43,410 nt of DNA from a virus: positions 1-43,410 of the IMG/VR virus record IMGVR_UViG_3300046328_000140, one strand, 5' to 3'. A program made the translations under genes and the position numbers. Under the pieces are notes generated by a model. That model was not told where the DNA came from. It was given only the letters and a program-made list of their open reading frames with translations, and searched no databases. Shown piece by piece: positions 9,753-22,044 of the stretch; positions within the stretch are counted from its first letter, which is position 1, and each line of letters begins with the position of its first letter.

Positions 9753-10241
9753 ATGACACCAGAAAGACTAAAAGAACTCCTTGAGTACTTCCCGTTAACT
9801 GGTGAAGTACGCAACCGAAAGAACAAACGAATACTACAGCAAGATCATGATGGTTTAGTTGTAGTATTCTGTTCTTTCGCCAAGAAGACAACTAAGATGA
9901 AACTAGAAAGGGTAGCATACGCTCTGGGTTTTGGAGTATTCCCTAAAGAGAATCAAAGAGTACTGCACAGGAATCTAGACCTTGAGGATAATAGGTTAGT
10001 TAATCTAATGCTGGTAACCCGCGCTGAATTCCTCCAGATAAAGGAGGCTCACCGGAACTTAACCAAGGATATTAAGATAATGGCTCACGGTACTGACCAA
10101 TTTGATTATGTTATATCTTGGTTTGAAAAAGGGATAGAGCGCAAGAAGATTGTGCATGATATTATCAAGGCAAGACAGGGAATGCTGAAGCTACAACTGA
10201 AGTACAGCAAGATACTTACTAAGTATTGCTTATTTGAATGA
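9753..10241 (+). CDS. HNH-like protein, possibly a degenerate endonuclease
   Basis: 162 residues. An N-terminal region (ERLKELLEYFPLTGEVRNRK) and VLHRNLDLEDNRLVNLMLVT resemble the 'xLDGDxxNNRxxNL' core of phage HNH endonucleases and their NUMOD-type partners. The first His of the canonical HNH is not clearly present, so catalysis may be lost. The last third is a basic helical region that could bind DNA. It ends the operon, with AGGAACGT upstream of the ATG. Confidence 0.6.
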   Translation: MTPERLKELLEYFPLTGEVRNRKNKRILQQDHDGLVVVFCSFAKKTTKMKLERVAYALGFGVFPKENQRVLHRNLDLEDNRLVNLMLVTRAEFLQIKEAHRNLTKDIKIMAHGTDQFDYVISWFEKGIERKKIVHDIIKARQGMLKLQLKYSKILTKYCLFE

Positions 10242-11774: not shown

Positions 11775-12602
11775 ATGAAATGTACAAATACAAACTCCAA
11801 GAATATTTTCACGGATTTACTTGGAATTAAACGCAGAACTAAAACGTCCGATACAGTCGGGCAGTTCTTTGCAACAAATAGAGATGGGCTGGTTAAAGTG
11901 ATATCTGTAGCTCAAGCGAGATCTGTTCTAGTTAAGTTTGTGAACTCTGGTTTTGAGAAAGAAGTTCTTATAGCTAATCTCCGAAAAGGTAAGTGTATGG
12001 ATGAAACAACTACAGATAGAACACATCCAACAACTTACCCAAATAAAGAATACGAATCAAATGGTTCTGGTAGATTTACGGTAGTTGAAAAAACAGGTAG
12101 TTTATGTACTATAGTTTTTAAAGATACAGGTTATAAAACTACATCGCTGCTTGGTAATCTAAAAGCTGGTAAAGTAAATGACCCTTATCGTAAAAGTGTT
12201 TATGGTATTGGGTATCTTGGAGAATACACCAAGAATGATTGTACAAAGTATACTTATATTCTTTGGCATAACATGTTAAAGCGTTGCTACTGTCCTAAAG
12301 ACTCAAAAGGTTATTTTGGACGTGGTATTGAAGTATCTGAGCGATGGTTATGTTACTCTAACTTTATTGAGGATGTCAAGTCTTTGACTAATTTTGATAA
12401 GTGGCTAGATGGTCAAACTGATAAAACTAAAACTCAATATAACTTGGATAAAGATTTTGCATTCTACGGATGTATTTTATATTCCAAAGAGAATTGTCAG
12501 TTCATGGATGAATCAATCAATAAAGGTACTACCAGTAGAACTATAGCTGCTAAGTCAAGGATTGAAAAGTATAATAGAAACAAGGAAAACCAAAATGGCT
12601 GA
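11775..12602 (+). CDS. Free-standing HNH-type homing endonuclease
   Basis: 275 residues. The N-terminal half has two copies of a repeat around SVLVKFVNSGFEKEVLIANL and TIVFKDTGYKTTSLLGNLKA, each ending in RKGK or KAGK, which look like NUMOD-type DNA-binding units. Next comes VYGIGYLGEY and the pattern WHNMLKRCYCP, GYFGRGIEVSERW, FIEDV with YNLDKDFAFYG found in phage HNH-like nucleases. Its last codons overlap the terL start by 8 bases. It carries its own ribosome site (AAAGAGGTAACAA), preceded by the RNA motif at 11688. The gene most likely inserted between terS and terL and spreads by cutting phages that lack it. Confidence 0.85.
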   Translation: MKCTNTNSKNIFTDLLGIKRRTKTSDTVGQFFATNRDGLVKVISVAQARSVLVKFVNSGFEKEVLIANLRKGKCMDETTTDRTHPTTYPNKEYESNGSGRFTVVEKTGSLCTIVFKDTGYKTTSLLGNLKAGKVNDPYRKSVYGIGYLGEYTKNDCTKYTYILWHNMLKRCYCPKDSKGYFGRGIEVSERWLCYSNFIEDVKSLTNFDKWLDGQTDKTKTQYNLDKDFAFYGCILYSKENCQFMDESINKGTTSRTIAAKSRIEKYNRNKENQNG

Positions 12603-13007
12603 AAAACAAGTAGTTATCGGACCAAGATCAAAGAAGCAAGAAATGTACATCAATGATGATGCAGATGTTGTAGTTTTTGGTGGTGGTGCTGGCTAGCCGG
12701 TAAGAGCTTTTTAGGTGCTATGGATGTCCTTAAACATTCGGGTGATCCGAAATTCCGTTGTTTAGTTGTTCGACGAATTTCCCCTCAAATCCACGGACCG
12801 GGGGGAATCTTTGAAACTTTTGTTAATCTGCATCGTGAGGTGTACGGTAATACATTGAAGGTTAAAAAACGCGACGGAATTCTTGAGTACCCCGCTGGTG
12901 GTACTGTTTCATTTAGACACTGCCAATACGAGGAAGACAAACATAGTTTCCAAGGCTGGCAGCTTTCAATGGCTACCTATATAAGTTATTAGACGAGGCC
13001 CAACAGT
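12595..13007 (+). CDS. terL: Terminase large subunit, 5' exon with two apparent 1-nt shifts
   Basis: The ATPase half of the packaging motor. From ATG 12595 the frame gives DVVVFGGGAG and then stops at 12694 in the Walker A loop. One base lower the frame continues AGKSFLGAMDVLKHSGDPKF, RCLVVRRISPQ and HSFQGWQLS to a stop at about 12990. A second shift then gives KLLDEAQQ, the Walker B. Joined across the shifts it is a normal large terminase, with GAGxAGKS as the P-loop. The exon ends at T13007 before a group I intron. Each shift equals one missing base, in GGCTAGCC and in or near ATAAGTTA. Either the gene is broken or the read is wrong at two places. Confidence 0.8.
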
Positions 13008-13295
13008 TAAATTTGTGGTAGCTGTTGTAAAATCCCTTGAATTGCTGGAATCCCCTTAGAGCCTGTAAGCTACAACATAGTTAGAAATGACAAGTGTGAA
13101 TGCTTAAAAATTACAGGATTGGGCAATCAGCAGCTAAGACCCGTTCAGGGTAAAGTTCAACGACTATTCCGTAAGGAAGTAGAGATAAGTATCTCGAAGC
13201 GGGGGAGTACGAAAGTACATGATATAGTCTATTCTAGTGTCGAAAGTGCTAGCAGCGAAAGCGGTTTGAATGTAACGAATTCAAGCGAATTATAG
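13008..13295 (+). ncRNA. Group I intron (IA-like) in terL, 288 nt, no ORF
   Basis: P1 is CAACAGT at the exon end (13001-13007) paired with GCTGTTG (13021-13027), placing the U-G wobble at the splice site. P10 pairs exon-2 TAACAC with GTGGTA (13015-13020), 5 of 6. The core reads AATTGCTGGAA, AATCAGCAGC, GTTCAACGACTA and ATGATATAGTCT, that is P, Q, R and S; P7 is GACTA with TAGTC. GTAC-GAAA-GTAC and TTGAAT/ATTCAA are peripheral hairpins. The last base is G13295. Splicing gives the codons DEAQQLTQSQVVYIMSRLRS in one frame. Confidence 0.93.
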
Positions 13296-14374
13296 TAACA
13301 CAATCTCAAGTGGTGTATATCATGTCTAGGCTACGGTCTGAGGCTGCAATGCGCCCTAAAATGCGAATGACGTGTAATCCAGCAGGTAAAGGCCATTGGT
13401 TGACTAACTGGCTTGAATGGTACTTACTCCCTAGTGGTTTACCTGATCCTGATAAATGCGGAGTACGCAGGTACTTCACTATGCGAGATAATGAGTTAGT
13501 GTGGGGAGATTCCGAGGAAGAGGTCAAGAGACTTATTCCGGGTTGTTCACCTCTTAGTTTTACCTTTATCAATGCAAACGTGTATGACAACCCCGTTTTA
13601 ATGGAAAGACAGCCTGAGTATGTTGCTTGGTTAGAAGGACAAGATCGTGAAACCAAAGAAGCACTACTTTATGGAAATTGGTACGTTACGAAACAATCAG
13701 AAAGTTACTTTAAAAAGAAGTGGACTCCGGTTATTGATACTGCTCCATTCTCGGCTAAACGTGTACGTGCTTATGATTTTGCAGGTTCATTGAAAGATGA
13801 GGTTAACAAAGACCCTGACTATACTGCTGGTGTTCTTCTAAGTAAAACAAAAGATAGTGCTTATACTGTAGAACATGCTACCAGAATGCGAGAACGCTTT
13901 CATACTGTAGAACAGTTCATATTCAGACAAGCAGAGATAGATGGAACTGATGTAACTATTGTCTTACCAGTTGATGCTGGTGCTGCTGGTAAAGCCTACG
14001 CTAGTTCCCTTCAGAAGCAACTAGCAGAGAAAGGTTACTACGTTCGATTATATCCCTCAAGCACTAAGAGTAAACTTGTACGATTCCGTCCGTTTGCATC
14101 CATTTGCGAAGCAGGTTTTGTAAGTGTGGTGCATGGTGCATGGAATGATTGGTACTTTGACGAACTTGAACAGTTCTTAGGGGACGGTAAACAACATGAC
14201 GATGCACTTGATGCAACTGTTGCTGGATTCTGGTTCTTGAATCAAGGTAATCAATTACCCGACTTCACCCTAAGCTCTATCGACACTTCATCATCTGAAC
14301 CTTTATTCCAAGGGTATAACTTCAGTCAAGCGCCCTCTCTTCAGTTTCAATCACTGCCTAGCTTCAAGTTCTAA
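13296..14374 (+). CDS. terL: Terminase large subunit, 3' exon
   Basis: Continues from exon 1 as TQSQVVYIMSRLRSEA and includes MRMTCNPAGKGHWLTNW, the ATPase coupling motif of large terminases. The C-terminal nuclease fold shows VRAYDFAGS (first acidic residue), VLPVDAGAAGKAYASSL and KQHDDALDATVAGFWFL (last acidic pair), which would coordinate the metal ions that cut the concatemer. A GTG at 13310 could start translation but is well inside the domain. This half is intact. The strong YDFAGS...DAG...HDDALDA order makes the family certain; the packaging type (cos or headful) is not clear. Confidence 0.93.
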
Positions 14375-15992: not shown

Positions 15993-16700
15993 ATGTCAAA
16001 AGAAATTAAAATAGAAAAGAACTTCACCGTACGGCTAAAGCAACATTACATTTACATTCATAGACGCAAAACAAATGATGAAGTTTTCTATGTAGGTAAA
16101 GGGAAAGATCATCGTTGGTGTAATGTGTACAGCAGAGGAAATCACTGGAAAAACATAGCAAATAAACATGGAGTTTATTGTGAAATAGTCGCTAACTCCC
16201 TTACTGAATCTGAAGCGTTCATTCTAGAAAAGAAGCTTATTGCATTGTACGGAAGACTCGATCAGAAGACTGGAACACTTGTAAATCTCACAATAGGTGG
16301 AGATGGTGTTTGTGGTTACAAGTACACACCAGAGCAATGTAAGCGTAAATCTGAATTAGGCAAAGGCAGGGTACATTCACCAGAAACTATAGCAAAAATG
16401 TGTAGAGTACAAAAAGGTCGTATAGCATCTGAAGAGTCTAAGAGAAAACTTTCAGAGTACCGAACAGGTAAGAAACTACCAGCTAGCACAGTTCTTGCTA
16501 TGCGTCCACATCACGACTCACTTCAAGTAAAAGTGTTGTGTGTTGAAACTGGAGTCATCTATGATAGTATGGTTCTAGCAGCCAACTCAGTTGACGGTTG
16601 TGGTTCTTGTATCTCTAAAGTCTGTCAAATGAAACGTAAGAAACATAAAGGCTTCACTTGGCGTTATCTTACGAACGATTTTCCTACACAACAACCCTAG
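15993..16700 (+). CDS. GIY-YIG homing endonuclease with NUMOD3 motif
   Basis: 235 residues. HYIYIHRRKTNDEVFYVGKG (about 19-38) is the GIY-YIG core, followed by HRWCNVYSRG with the catalytic-type Arg and EAFILEKKLIALYG with the Glu. GKGRVHSPETIAKMCRVQKG, then GRIASEESKRKLSEYRTGKK, are NUMOD3 DNA-binding repeats, and a C-terminal SxxxAA region is a NUMOD1-like unit. It is free-standing, placed after the portal gene and preceded by RNA motif copy 2 and an AAGGAAAT ribosome site. It likely inserted without breaking a neighbour. Confidence 0.93.
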   Translation: MSKEIKIEKNFTVRLKQHYIYIHRRKTNDEVFYVGKGKDHRWCNVYSRGNHWKNIANKHGVYCEIVANSLTESEAFILEKKLIALYGRLDQKTGTLVNLTIGGDGVCGYKYTPEQCKRKSELGKGRVHSPETIAKMCRVQKGRIASEESKRKLSEYRTGKKLPASTVLAMRPHHDSLQVKVLCVETGVIYDSMVLAANSVDGCGSCISKVCQMKRKKHKGFTWRYLTNDFPTQQP

Positions 16701-18167: not shown

Positions 18168-18575
18168 ATGAGTTTCCAAGTAGCCTATAATCCAAGTCTA
18201 GAAAATGCACTAGTCGGAGTCTCTTATGCCTTTCACGAAGTACCTGAGGGTATCATTACAGAGTGGCACGAAGGAGACTTGCCTGATTTTACAAAAGTGC
18301 AATGGAGTCCCGGAGGTTTAAACTTCATTAATACCAATACCCAAAGTAGATTTCTTAGTACTACAGCGTTTATGCGAAGGTTCACTTTCACTGAAAGACT
18401 AGCAGTTCGTTCCTTAGAACGAGAAGGTGATTTAGTAGTTATAGATGCAATGTCGTTGATGCAAGGAACAGAGGATGGGGTTAACTTAGATGATCCTGAT
18501 GTTTTACTTACGCTTCAATATCTTTTCTCTAAAGGAATTATTGAATATAAAAGAATACAGGAGATACTACTATGA
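18168..18575 (+). CDS. Hypothetical structural-region protein, 135 aa
   Basis: Behind an AGGAGTAAT ribosome site; its stop overlaps the start of the next gene by 4 bases (ATGA). VSYAFHEVPEGIITEWHEGD and TAFMRRFTFTERLAVRSLER suggest a mixed fold; the Arg-rich FTERLAVRSLEREGD region may be an interface. The final third, DDPDVLLTLQYLFSKGIIEY, resembles a short segment seen in small proteins beside phage tail-fibre genes. Function not determined; a chaperone or attachment protein for the neighbouring appendage is an idea, not a result. Confidence 0.65.
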   Translation: MSFQVAYNPSLENALVGVSYAFHEVPEGIITEWHEGDLPDFTKVQWSPGGLNFINTNTQSRFLSTTAFMRRFTFTERLAVRSLEREGDLVVIDAMSLMQGTEDGVNLDDPDVLLTLQYLFSKGIIEYKRIQEILL

Positions 18576-19456
18576 CTGCTTTCGTAGCATCAAATGGACT
18601 TGTTAATAATTTTGACGCATATACTGGGGGTTCGGTCGTAGCTACTTTGGACTCGACTATATCTATGTGTATATACACGATCACTCACAGAGCAACTGGT
18701 CGTATATATGTTGGGCAGACCACTGGAAAAGCCAAGGTTAGGTGGAGGGGTCATTGCTCCGCACGATCAGGTAGCGGAAAGTCTGCTATCAAGTCTGCCA
18801 TTCAAAAGTATGGGCGCGACGCATTCGTTTTTGAAGTTATAGATGTCTCGGAGTCACAAGACCAACTTAACCACAAAGAGCGGTTCTGGATTGCGAGACT
18901 TAGTTCTGTTGCCCCAGCCGGTTTTAATTTAGAGTTGGGTGGTAATAGTACGGGTAAAGTTTCGGAAGCCACAAAGAAATTAATTTCAGCTAGGGTTAAG
19001 GAGGCATACGAACGCGATCCAACCTTACGGTTTCGCTGTACAATGCATAACGTTGGTCGTATCATGTCAGAGCCTGAGAAGCTACGGCGGTCGGAGTCGG
19101 GTAAAGCGGCGCATCAAGTTGATCTAGGACTTACTAGCCGCAAGACAGATCACTTAAAAGGTAAAAGTCACCCGGATTCTGTTAAGAAAAGCATTGCTGA
19201 GACATTGCGAGGGAAAGAATTTAGCGCAGAGCGTCGCGCCGCAATTTCCGCCGGAATGAAACCATTGACGATTGAGCAGCGAATTGATCTTGCAAGACGT
19301 AGGTACACCGGCAAACCAATAAAGGTAAACGGTATAATTTTCCAAACAGCGTTTGAGGCGGAACTGTCAACTGGTATACCCGCTGGACAAATATCGACTG
19401 CAATTAGACGAGGAAATCAGTTTGTTAAAGGTGTCAAGATCGAGGTGGTTTCCTAA
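18572..19456 (+). CDS. GIY-YIG endonuclease fused to a tail-gene 5' end
   Basis: 294 residues. Residues 1-31 (ending DAYTGGSVVATLDSTIS) match the start of the next gene (DTLTGGSANATLDTHVIS), so the protein begins with tail-gene sequence. The nuclease follows: IYTITHRATGRIYVGQTTGK (34-53), KVRWRGHCS with the Arg, LNHKERFWIARL with the Glu, and NUMOD3-like GKSHPDSVKKSIAETLRGKE. Codon use is clearly richer in G+C than the genes on either side, suggesting recent transfer. Its stop overlaps the start of the next gene by one base. Confidence 0.88.
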   Translation: MTAFVASNGLVNNFDAYTGGSVVATLDSTISMCIYTITHRATGRIYVGQTTGKAKVRWRGHCSARSGSGKSAIKSAIQKYGRDAFVFEVIDVSESQDQLNHKERFWIARLSSVAPAGFNLELGGNSTGKVSEATKKLISARVKEAYERDPTLRFRCTMHNVGRIMSEPEKLRRSESGKAAHQVDLGLTSRKTDHLKGKSHPDSVKKSIAETLRGKEFSAERRAAISAGMKPLTIEQRIDLARRRYTGKPIKVNGIIFQTAFEAELSTGIPAGQISTAIRRGNQFVKGVKIEVVS

Positions 19457-22044
19457 TGGCAGCTTACACACACAACACAGGTGGTACGGTTTTTTACGAT
19501 ACCCTGACTGGCGGCTCCGCAAATGCGACTCTGGATACACATGTAATTTCAAATCAGACCACCCTAACGATTAGAACCGATTCGTATTCTTGTGCAAACC
19601 ACAGCACAGCGGTAGGTAGTTTGGACACAGTATCCTTCACCGGAGCAGGTGGCACTCTCCAATTTGATCCGACCTACACTCGCCATATTGCATACACAGG
19701 TGGGACTGGAAACTCCCCAGCTTATGGCGCAACTATATCTCAAGGAGGTGTATCTGGGGTATTTTTAGGCGCATGGGCAAGCTGGTTAAGTGAACCTGTG
19801 GCCGCTGGCGCTGCAATTCCAGCCAGCGGCTTTATCAAGATCGGCGGGACGACGGGAGGGGAGTGGTCCGCTGGTGCGTTAACAGGTGTTGCTGCAACTT
19901 GCTCTGGAACATCTGTTCAATCGTTTATTGAAGTTCGCGGGCCAGACACAGGAACAATTACAGTACCTCGAATCGGTAAAGTAACCAGTACAGAAGCATG
20001 GTTTGAACTAGGAACAACTAACGGTGCTAGGAACCAAATTATCCCTTGTCCTACTACTGCTACATTCGCAGGCGTATTTCCGGGTGTTTGGATTGAAACT
20101 GCCGCTGGTTCTGGTGTTTATGACAGGTACGGTAATGCAGGTTCAGTTGTGGCATTAGCTACTCATAGAACTACCGCTGAGATGAAACTGTTTACTCAGA
20201 CTACGGGTGGTATCCGTATAGGTCACGATGGGACTAATGGTGTTTTCTACTTACCTCCTACTGGTTGTAAAGTCCGTATTCCAGCTACTATTTTAACTAA
20301 CTGTACTCGCACAGCTTCAGGCAGTGGACCAAGGATACTACCTAATGCTACGGTTGGTACTAGACAAGAATTAATTACTACAGGTGCTGGGTACTTTGAT
20401 TTGCGGAATCTAGTATCTCAATGGTACATGAATTTACAGCAAGCATTCTACGTTAAGTACAAATCCTGCGCTGTATCGGACTTGATGAATCTTTATGAGA
20501 TTGCTTCACCTTTGGATGTAACGGACTGTATTGTAGGTCCAACACAAGCACAAAGTAATTACGCATTCAACGTAATCTCTTGCTTTGCTGGTGGTAATGT
20601 AACAAATAACCTTTTCGTTAGGTTCGCATTAGCTGCTGCTGGTAGTTATGTTGCTCAAATCAACTTTGCCACTGGCGTCGCTTTTCAAAATAACACTTAC
20701 CTTTCAGCTACACTAAGAGCTAACGGTACTACTGGTGTAATTACAAGTGGACAAGCTGTTAATTGTACGTTCACAAATGAGACATTAATTGGTGGTCGTG
20801 GGTTATTTGTTACAGCACAAAATTGTACGTTCACAGGTACTATCTATTACGATCATACAATCACTACTACTACCACAGCTACCAACCCAATGTATATATT
20901 GGATTTCAGTACAGGTGCCAGTGGTAATACAATCAGTGGAATTACTTTACCTTTACCTAACAATGGACCTTATAACGGTTTAGTTAACGTAAACGCCTGC
21001 TATGATACTTTAGTCAAATCAATTGGAACATCAACGACTGCACCTCTGGTGATGACTAATACAGTAACAGGTCTTGGTGTTAATGCTTCAGGGAATAATG
21101 ACGGAATAGCTATTAAGCGAGTGTTCCTTTCAGGTACACGCACAGGTCCGTACTCCTTTGTTAACTCAGATACTAATATCTTGATTGAGAATGTAATGGG
21201 AGACTACGCTGACACTTCAGTGATCGCTGGATTGAATGCTACCGTAAAGAACGCAGGATTAACTGGAGCTACTACAGGTCAAGTCTCAGTTTATGGTTCT
21301 CATTGGTTGACTAGGTTCACTTCTACTACTGCTGGTTTTGCTGAAATTCTATGCAATGAACCAACTTCCAGTTCAGCTTTACAATGCTTTGAATCAGGAG
21401 GTATACCTCAGTTTAACTCAAGTGGCTCTGTATTGTTAACTAAGGCTGGTGATTCAGTTACTTGGGAAATGCCTTTCTTTGCTATTGGGTATACAGCATT
21501 TACCAATTCAGCACCAATTATCACAGGTACTAACGTAACCTTTAGTACACGTTGGGGTAATCATGATATTGAGTTCCAAGTAAATACAGGAAGTGGATAC
21601 GGCGGTACTTGGTTGAATCTAACAGCAGCTAACTTGATCGCTCAGACGTTCAATAGTACTACTGGGTTTAAACTAAAGATTAGAGCTACATGTGCTATTG
21701 CATCAGCTACTAACGTAATTACTAACATGCGAGTGAACTTGACTACTACAAGTACAGATCAAGCCACTAAGCTATATCCACTACAGACTGTCACTCTTTC
21801 ATTAACTGGATTACAGACTGGTACAGATATTGTTATTCTGCAAGCTGGAACTGATGTAATTCTACAGCAACAGGATAGTAATTCAGGAAGTACTTATGAT
21901 TACATTTATGAGACTGTCCAGAATGTAGATATTGGTTTAATCAAACCAAACTATGTACCTTTGTATATCCGAAATTATCCACTTAGCTCATCTAATTCGA
22001 GCTTACCAATTTCCCAAACATTTGATAGAAACTACGGAGCTTAA
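19456..22044 (+). CDS. Large beta-rich virion protein (tail or appendage)
   Basis: 862 residues, rich in Thr, Ser, Gly and Asn with few charges, as in tail fibres and spikes. The middle has NTxxTxxNCTF-like strand repeats (AVNCTFTNETLIGGRGLF; AQNCTFTGTIYY) consistent with a right-handed beta-helix, and SFVNSDTNILIENVMGD. No coiled coil. The first ~180 residues (19456 to about 19990) are G+C-rich and the remainder is not, so the 5' end probably came with the endonuclease gene next to it. The likely role is host contact or a decoration of the virion. Confidence 0.7.
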   Translation: MAAYTHNTGGTVFYDTLTGGSANATLDTHVISNQTTLTIRTDSYSCANHSTAVGSLDTVSFTGAGGTLQFDPTYTRHIAYTGGTGNSPAYGATISQGGVSGVFLGAWASWLSEPVAAGAAIPASGFIKIGGTTGGEWSAGALTGVAATCSGTSVQSFIEVRGPDTGTITVPRIGKVTSTEAWFELGTTNGARNQIIPCPTTATFAGVFPGVWIETAAGSGVYDRYGNAGSVVALATHRTTAEMKLFTQTTGGIRIGHDGTNGVFYLPPTGCKVRIPATILTNCTRTASGSGPRILPNATVGTRQELITTGAGYFDLRNLVSQWYMNLQQAFYVKYKSCAVSDLMNLYEIASPLDVTDCIVGPTQAQSNYAFNVISCFAGGNVTNNLFVRFALAAAGSYVAQINFATGVAFQNNTYLSATLRANGTTGVITSGQAVNCTFTNETLIGGRGLFVTAQNCTFTGTIYYDHTITTTTTATNPMYILDFSTGASGNTISGITLPLPNNGPYNGLVNVNACYDTLVKSIGTSTTAPLVMTNTVTGLGVNASGNNDGIAIKRVFLSGTRTGPYSFVNSDTNILIENVMGDYADTSVIAGLNATVKNAGLTGATTGQVSVYGSHWLTRFTSTTAGFAEILCNEPTSSSALQCFESGGIPQFNSSGSVLLTKAGDSVTWEMPFFAIGYTAFTNSAPIITGTNVTFSTRWGNHDIEFQVNTGSGYGGTWLNLTAANLIAQTFNSTTGFKLKIRATCAIASATNVITNMRVNLTTTSTDQATKLYPLQTVTLSLTGLQTGTDIVILQAGTDVILQQQDSNSGSTYDYIYETVQNVDIGLIKPNYVPLYIRNYPLSSSNSSLPISQTFDRNYGA

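Follow-up and report, generated by a model that had tools for sequence, protein, structure and literature searches.

A GIY-YIG endonuclease gene that opens with the start of a phage tail-type gene and is followed by a second start of that gene

In three phages the old start of a tail-type surface gene is fused in frame to a GIY-YIG endonuclease, and directly behind the nuclease that gene begins anew with a complete, diverged start. We describe this arrangement in the window (the whole 43,410-nt stretch of DNA that was analysed, IMG/VR virus record IMGVR_UViG_3300046328_000140, whose other genes include those for terminase, portal, major head, minor tail and tape-measure proteins; table 1) and in two of the compared loci, L001 and L024. 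We consider it likely that a free-standing GIY-YIG homing endonuclease gene captured the start of the surface gene and supplied a replacement for it, and that conversion followed later.

Table 1. Features of the nuclease and tail gene locus, in positions of the window
Feature	Position	Strand	Basis or remark
Shine-Dalgarno-like AGGAG, before captured start	18559-18563		
GIY-YIG ORF	18572-19456	+	294 residues
Captured start of old tail gene (ATG + 31 codons), now N terminus of nuclease ORF	18572-18664	+	relatives' profile, L007/L009 identity, GC3
GIY-YIG endonuclease body, from its own ATG (MCIYTITH)	18665-19456	+	PF01541, PHROG; stop TAA 19454-19456
First ~21 nuclease codons, common to L001 element	18665-18725	+	identity changepoint
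GAGG within last nuclease codons; can serve tail gene	19442-19445	+	sequence
TAATG, nuclease stop overlapping tail start	19454-19458	+	sequence
Putative replacement 5' end of tail gene, codons 1-138, other lineage (nearest L083)	19456-19869	+	trees, changepoints
Putative native body of "tail" gene (beta-helix, tailspike-like), sister to L001	19870-22044	+	tree, Foldseek

The nuclease, its N terminus and the gene behind it

The GIY-YIG domain occupies residues 32-110 of the nuclease ORF (Pfam PF01541, E = 4.2e-8), and the ORF matches the PHROG homing endonuclease (1.8e-35); a PDB sequence search with the nuclease gave no match. Residues Y35, Y46, G48, R57, H61, E103 and N119 are invariant across the nucleases of the window, L001 and L024 and match the catalytic set of I-TevI; judged from sequence, the catalytic residues are intact.

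An earlier note on this DNA had claimed that the nuclease N terminus resembles that of the downstream tail protein and that the nuclease ORF begins with the old start of the tail gene, and both claims hold up. The two N termini are identical at 12 of 30 aligned residues (BLOSUM62 score 54, reached by none of 5000 shuffles, of which the best scored 46). About 70 loci with the tail gene were collected from IMG/VR scans, and a profile of the N termini of 35 distinct nuclease-free relatives matches nuclease residues 1-31 along its columns 1-31 with E = 2.4e-10; among 44,536 six-frame fragments, the nuclease ORF of the window was the only convincing non-tail match to this profile. Among single sequences the tail starts of L007/L009 come closest, with 79% identity over the first 28 aa, followed by L013 (75%) and L011 (72%), and the captured start fits these nuclease-free relatives better than it fits the phage's own downstream start. 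At the DNA level it agrees with the best nuclease-free start at 53 of 81 bases, a value that none of 18,264 other candidate starts attains (best 43). Chance likeness of two short N termini, or a chimera of assembly, might be suspected from a first comparison that comprised 31 residues in a single virus record, but the profile score, the empty DNA background and the finding of one architecture on three separate contigs leave such an explanation hardly credible. By these comparisons nuclease residues 1-31 are the start of a tail gene.

The gene behind the nuclease (19456-22044, 862 codons), whose ATG overlaps the nuclease stop, has no Pfam or PHROG match. A structure model of its product, of low confidence overall, is beta-helix-like in its middle and C-terminal parts, and Foldseek ranks phage tailspikes and depolymerases highest among its matches. 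The product resembles a surface protein of the tailspike type with a beta-helix; given the confidence of the model, calling it a "tail protein" is reasonable but not proven. The N-terminal third is modelled with pLDDT mostly <60, so that a module boundary near codon 160 cannot be assigned to a domain edge. Upstream of the captured start, between it and a 433-aa gene, lies a 135-aa ORF (18168-18575; PHROG 25252, unknown function) that is missing from L001 and the other compared tail loci.

Related insertions at the same site

L001, whose tail gene is 81% identical to that of the window and whose next gene is 97% identical, carries a different GIY-YIG gene in the same place, beginning MTAFVASNGAVSAPLDSKIS followed by MCIYTITH (MTAFVASN..APLDSKIS, then MCIYTITH). 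L024 carries a third, with a GTG start, which begins MTALTCNSASVV followed by MCIYTITH. Over its first 24 bases the L024 captured start agrees at 83% with the beginning of the tail gene in nuclease-free L074, and its DNA score is reached only by the starts of the window and L001. The three nucleases are related, and in each the nuclease's own Met follows the captured segment, which measures 31 codons in the window, ~20 in L001 and 12 in L024; shorter segments would be expected if only the ribosome site, the start and the frame were still needed. In all three phages the tail gene has a complete start of different sequence at or under the nuclease end (TAATG, ATGA and TAATG, respectively), and the final codons of the nuclease contain a GAGG resembling a Shine-Dalgarno site. 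Presence at this one site is patchy, the nuclease being found in the window, L001 and L024 and absent before the other tail starts examined, and since the three cases involve one nuclease family they may descend from a single insertion that spread.

A similar final anatomy would also result if two tail-type genes or starts had stood in tandem first, through partial duplication, which could plausibly befall phage structural genes, and a nuclease that brought no start of its own had then replaced the rest of the first copy. Yet some 50 tail loci contain no tandem copy and no second N-terminal match other than the three nuclease ORFs, the junction falls at the same ATG in every one of the three nucleases, and in the window and L001 it is preceded by matching IS codons and lies within a conserved motif. 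We regard prior duplication as distinctly improbable and prefer insertion of a nuclease gene that carried a replacement start with it.

Other nuclease genes near structural genes were seen among the compared loci. A second GIY-YIG ORF of L024 (5136-5813; IMGVR_UViG_3300022231_000003) begins MAISVNSSCVY; the gene after it begins MISVDHGS, and its nuclease-free homologues in L013, L052 and L101 begin MAISINW or MAITINW. The MAISVN of this ORF is possibly another captured start, of six residues only. In L033 (4977-5732) and L048 (7589-8344) the tail gene is followed by a nuclease of this family (49% over residues 28-136); its stop overlaps the start of the next structural gene, a start that is one codon short (MKITSQ vs MAKITSK in relatives), and the nuclease itself, starting MGHLLLPSSETP, shows no clear capture of that start. 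The nucleases of L105, L058 and L100 likewise show no clear start capture.

A tract spanning nuclease and gene start

The earlier note had also proposed that a diverged replacement start follows the nuclease, and trees agree with this: tail codons 1-135 group the window with L083 (98/98) and a grouping of window and L001 is rejected (p-AU 0.02), and codons 480-860 group the window with L001 (100/100). No relative was found that carries the window's 5' tail region without the nuclease, the nearest being L083 at ~66% nucleotide identity. None of the IMG/VR loci comes from a nuclease-free phage closely related to the window itself, and the empty site is therefore reconstructed from more distant relatives; a blastn search of the locus against INPHARED gave no match, a single distant relative of the tail protein (36%) was found in that collection, and 84,980 bacterial and archaeal genomes hold no prophage copies.

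The G+C-rich block that the note had placed at ~18650-19990 is real (46-52% vs 37-42% around it), but its left edge lies at ~18725, inside the nuclease, and its right edge at 19870-19967. At third codon positions G+C (GC3) amounts to 0.29 for the captured codons, resembling the neighbouring genes, to 0.41 for the nuclease body, to 0.44 for tail codons 1-138 and to 0.27 for later tail codons, with a change at 19870 (permutations 8/1000 for the tail alone, 0/1000 for nuclease and tail together). As a marker of the tract, composition retains this contrast but says little when taken by itself, since a GC3 of 0.42 occurs elsewhere in the window too and indicates a local contrast, not foreignness as such; the replacement tract is defined here by divergence together with composition. 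Identity between the window and L001 falls from 86% to 45% at 18725 (changepoint, 0/1000 permutations), and tail identity rises from 61% to 81% near 19967. Among codons for the same residue, 9 of 15 are identical in the captured start and 17 of 19 in the first 21 nuclease codons, values near or above the 0.68-0.71 of the shared tail body; saturation is seen in the remaining nuclease codons (25 of 70) and across codons 1-138 of the tail gene (0.26).

Because the captured start and the first ~21 nuclease codons are common to L001 and the remainder is saturated, the single insertion after codon 31 that had been envisaged gives way to an older capture and a later conversion. The capture probably predates the split between the window and L001, and the comparison implies a conversion in the window from ~18725 to 19870/19967 that exchanged the nuclease body along with the start of the gene. 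A single foreign tract made up of nuclease and new start is clearest in L024, whose tail gene matches that of nuclease-free L061 at 93% identity from codon 61 onwards and at 62% before; GC3 there is 0.51 in the nuclease, 0.53 in tail codons 1-60, 0.83 in the rest and 0.81 in the upstream gene, with its changepoint at tail codon 60 (0/1000 permutations).

Tracts resembling co-conversion surround the insertion in both the window and L024, and a similar 5' break is present in nuclease-free L041. Compared with L037, the L041 tail gene breaks at codon 167, near the window's break at 171, and its GC3 (gene from 4501) shifts sharply from 0.18 to 0.45 at codon 154; an exchange of the 5' end therefore needs no resident nuclease. 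Relative to L001, the window's tail gene is also mosaic at codons 320-480, and N-terminal modules of the gene are, to judge from such breaks, exchanged between phages. The capture could on these grounds be real and the foreign 5' end nevertheless have arrived through ordinary recombination of N-terminal modules, unconnected with the nuclease. We consider this unlikely: the foreign tract takes in the adjoining nuclease body in the window, as its left edge at 18725 indicates, and the nuclease in L024; the right edge in L024, at codon 61, does not coincide with the module edge; and an invaded gene needs a complete start supplied if it is to work at all. A tract that brings nuclease and start together remains our preferred reading.

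A putative homing cassette and its nearest counterparts

We propose that a nuclease gene inserted itself directly after codon ~31 of a surface gene of the tail or tailspike type in a phage. Its product is predicted to cleave nuclease-free alleles near the conserved NATLDTYTIS codons, and repair of a double-strand break near conserved codons 23-32 from an element-bearing genome would copy in nuclease and replacement start together, using homology in the captured start or upstream of it on the left and in the tail body on the right. Since the replacement start would enter with the nuclease, the host gene would stay intact, restarted behind the nuclease, and since the replacement differs from the target it would escape cutting. 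The captured start would give the nuclease the ribosome site of the structural gene and would afterwards erode, with only its first codons kept. In the window, the capture would be the older event, common to L001, and a later conversion from a different element-bearing phage would have replaced ~18725-19900, that is, most of the nuclease and the first ~140 codons of the tail gene. Homing itself, in the sense of cutting gene-free alleles and being preferentially inherited, is putative.

Two familiar classes of mobile element were considered and rejected. A group I intron with an endonuclease was discarded because Rfam gave no match between 17000 and 21000, even with the threshold at E <= 1, and an intein because the ORF ends in a TAA that overlaps the new ATG and is not continuous in frame on both sides. 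T4 nucleases have hairpins that sequester the ribosome-binding site; at the captured and new starts no such hairpin was found, no z-score falling below -0.4. With no intron and no unusual hairpin hiding either start, the nuclease is probably expressed as part of the structural operon.

If this account is right, selfish nucleases have a way into the coding sequence of a surface protein that needs no intron or intein and does not destroy the gene: the nuclease gains the translation signals of the structural gene, the surface protein gains a foreign N-terminal module, and homing becomes linked to the exchange of tail or spike modules. It also offers a search rule for further cases: the N terminus of a nuclease should resemble the starts of relatives of the gene behind it. 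A wider family of phage homing cassettes that take structural-gene starts, carry a replacement start and use more than one target gene, with the MAISVN ORF of L024 as a further example, is conceivable, though we hold it to be a tentative and rather doubtful extension.

The nearest known arrangement appears, by analogy, to be that of fungal mitochondrial elements, among them mobile ORFs that replace a gene end in Allomyces macrogynus atp6, in Glomus atp6, atp9, cox2 and nad3 and in Rhizopus atp9 (PMC3630166), and Tremella fuciformis introns with host-gene duplications (PMC7315562). There, as here, an endonuclease ORF is inserted with a foreign, functional gene part and the displaced native part stays beside it (PMC3630166, PMC7315562), and in the phage, too, a part of the host gene occurs twice, flanking the endonuclease, the captured copy being closer to relatives and the new one from another lineage. 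In the atp6 type, however, the replacement C-terminal part stands before the endonuclease and the native end behind (PMC3630166), whereas in the phage the native start comes first, fused to the nuclease, and the replacement start after it, with no intron. In gene layout the phage locus is thus a mirror image of the Allomyces atp6 type and not a member of it, the N-terminal and not the C-terminal end being replaced.

Phage systems share other features. The free-standing seg and mob nucleases of T4 lie beside or in phage genes, often without their own promoter, and their flanks are co-converted; they adjoin or split genes (nrdA, gene 60), but the accessible part of that source does not describe a captured and a replacement start (PMC2988022). 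"Core creep" intron ORFs are likewise read in frame from a host start and gain its expression signals, but they sit in self-splicing introns, fused to the upstream exon (PMC8393795), and Rfam finds no intron here. The HNH nuclease of ShiLan also lies within a phage gene without intron or intein; it is out of frame and the methylase gene is continuous (PMC11855218), whereas here the gene is restarted behind the nuclease. In ICP1 and others a nuclease gene marks an exchange boundary between phage lineages, as here, although our boundary lies inside one gene and has a duplicated start (PMC10448857). The literature searched, in which subscription journals are thinly covered, did not yield a captured and a replacement start together in a phage, and we suggest that this is a new combination.

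The window holds at least four genes for homing-type nucleases, two HNH and two GIY-YIG (9753-10241, 11775-12602, 15993-16700 and 18572-19456). The HNH ORF at 11775-12602 stands just upstream of a large terminase gene (12720-14374) that appears split into ORFs at 12720-12992 and 13310-14374 (PHROG terminase, profile from residue 283), and between these lies the only intron found by Rfam in the window, a group I intron at 12940-13252 (RF00028, 50.1 bits vs a cutoff of 50).
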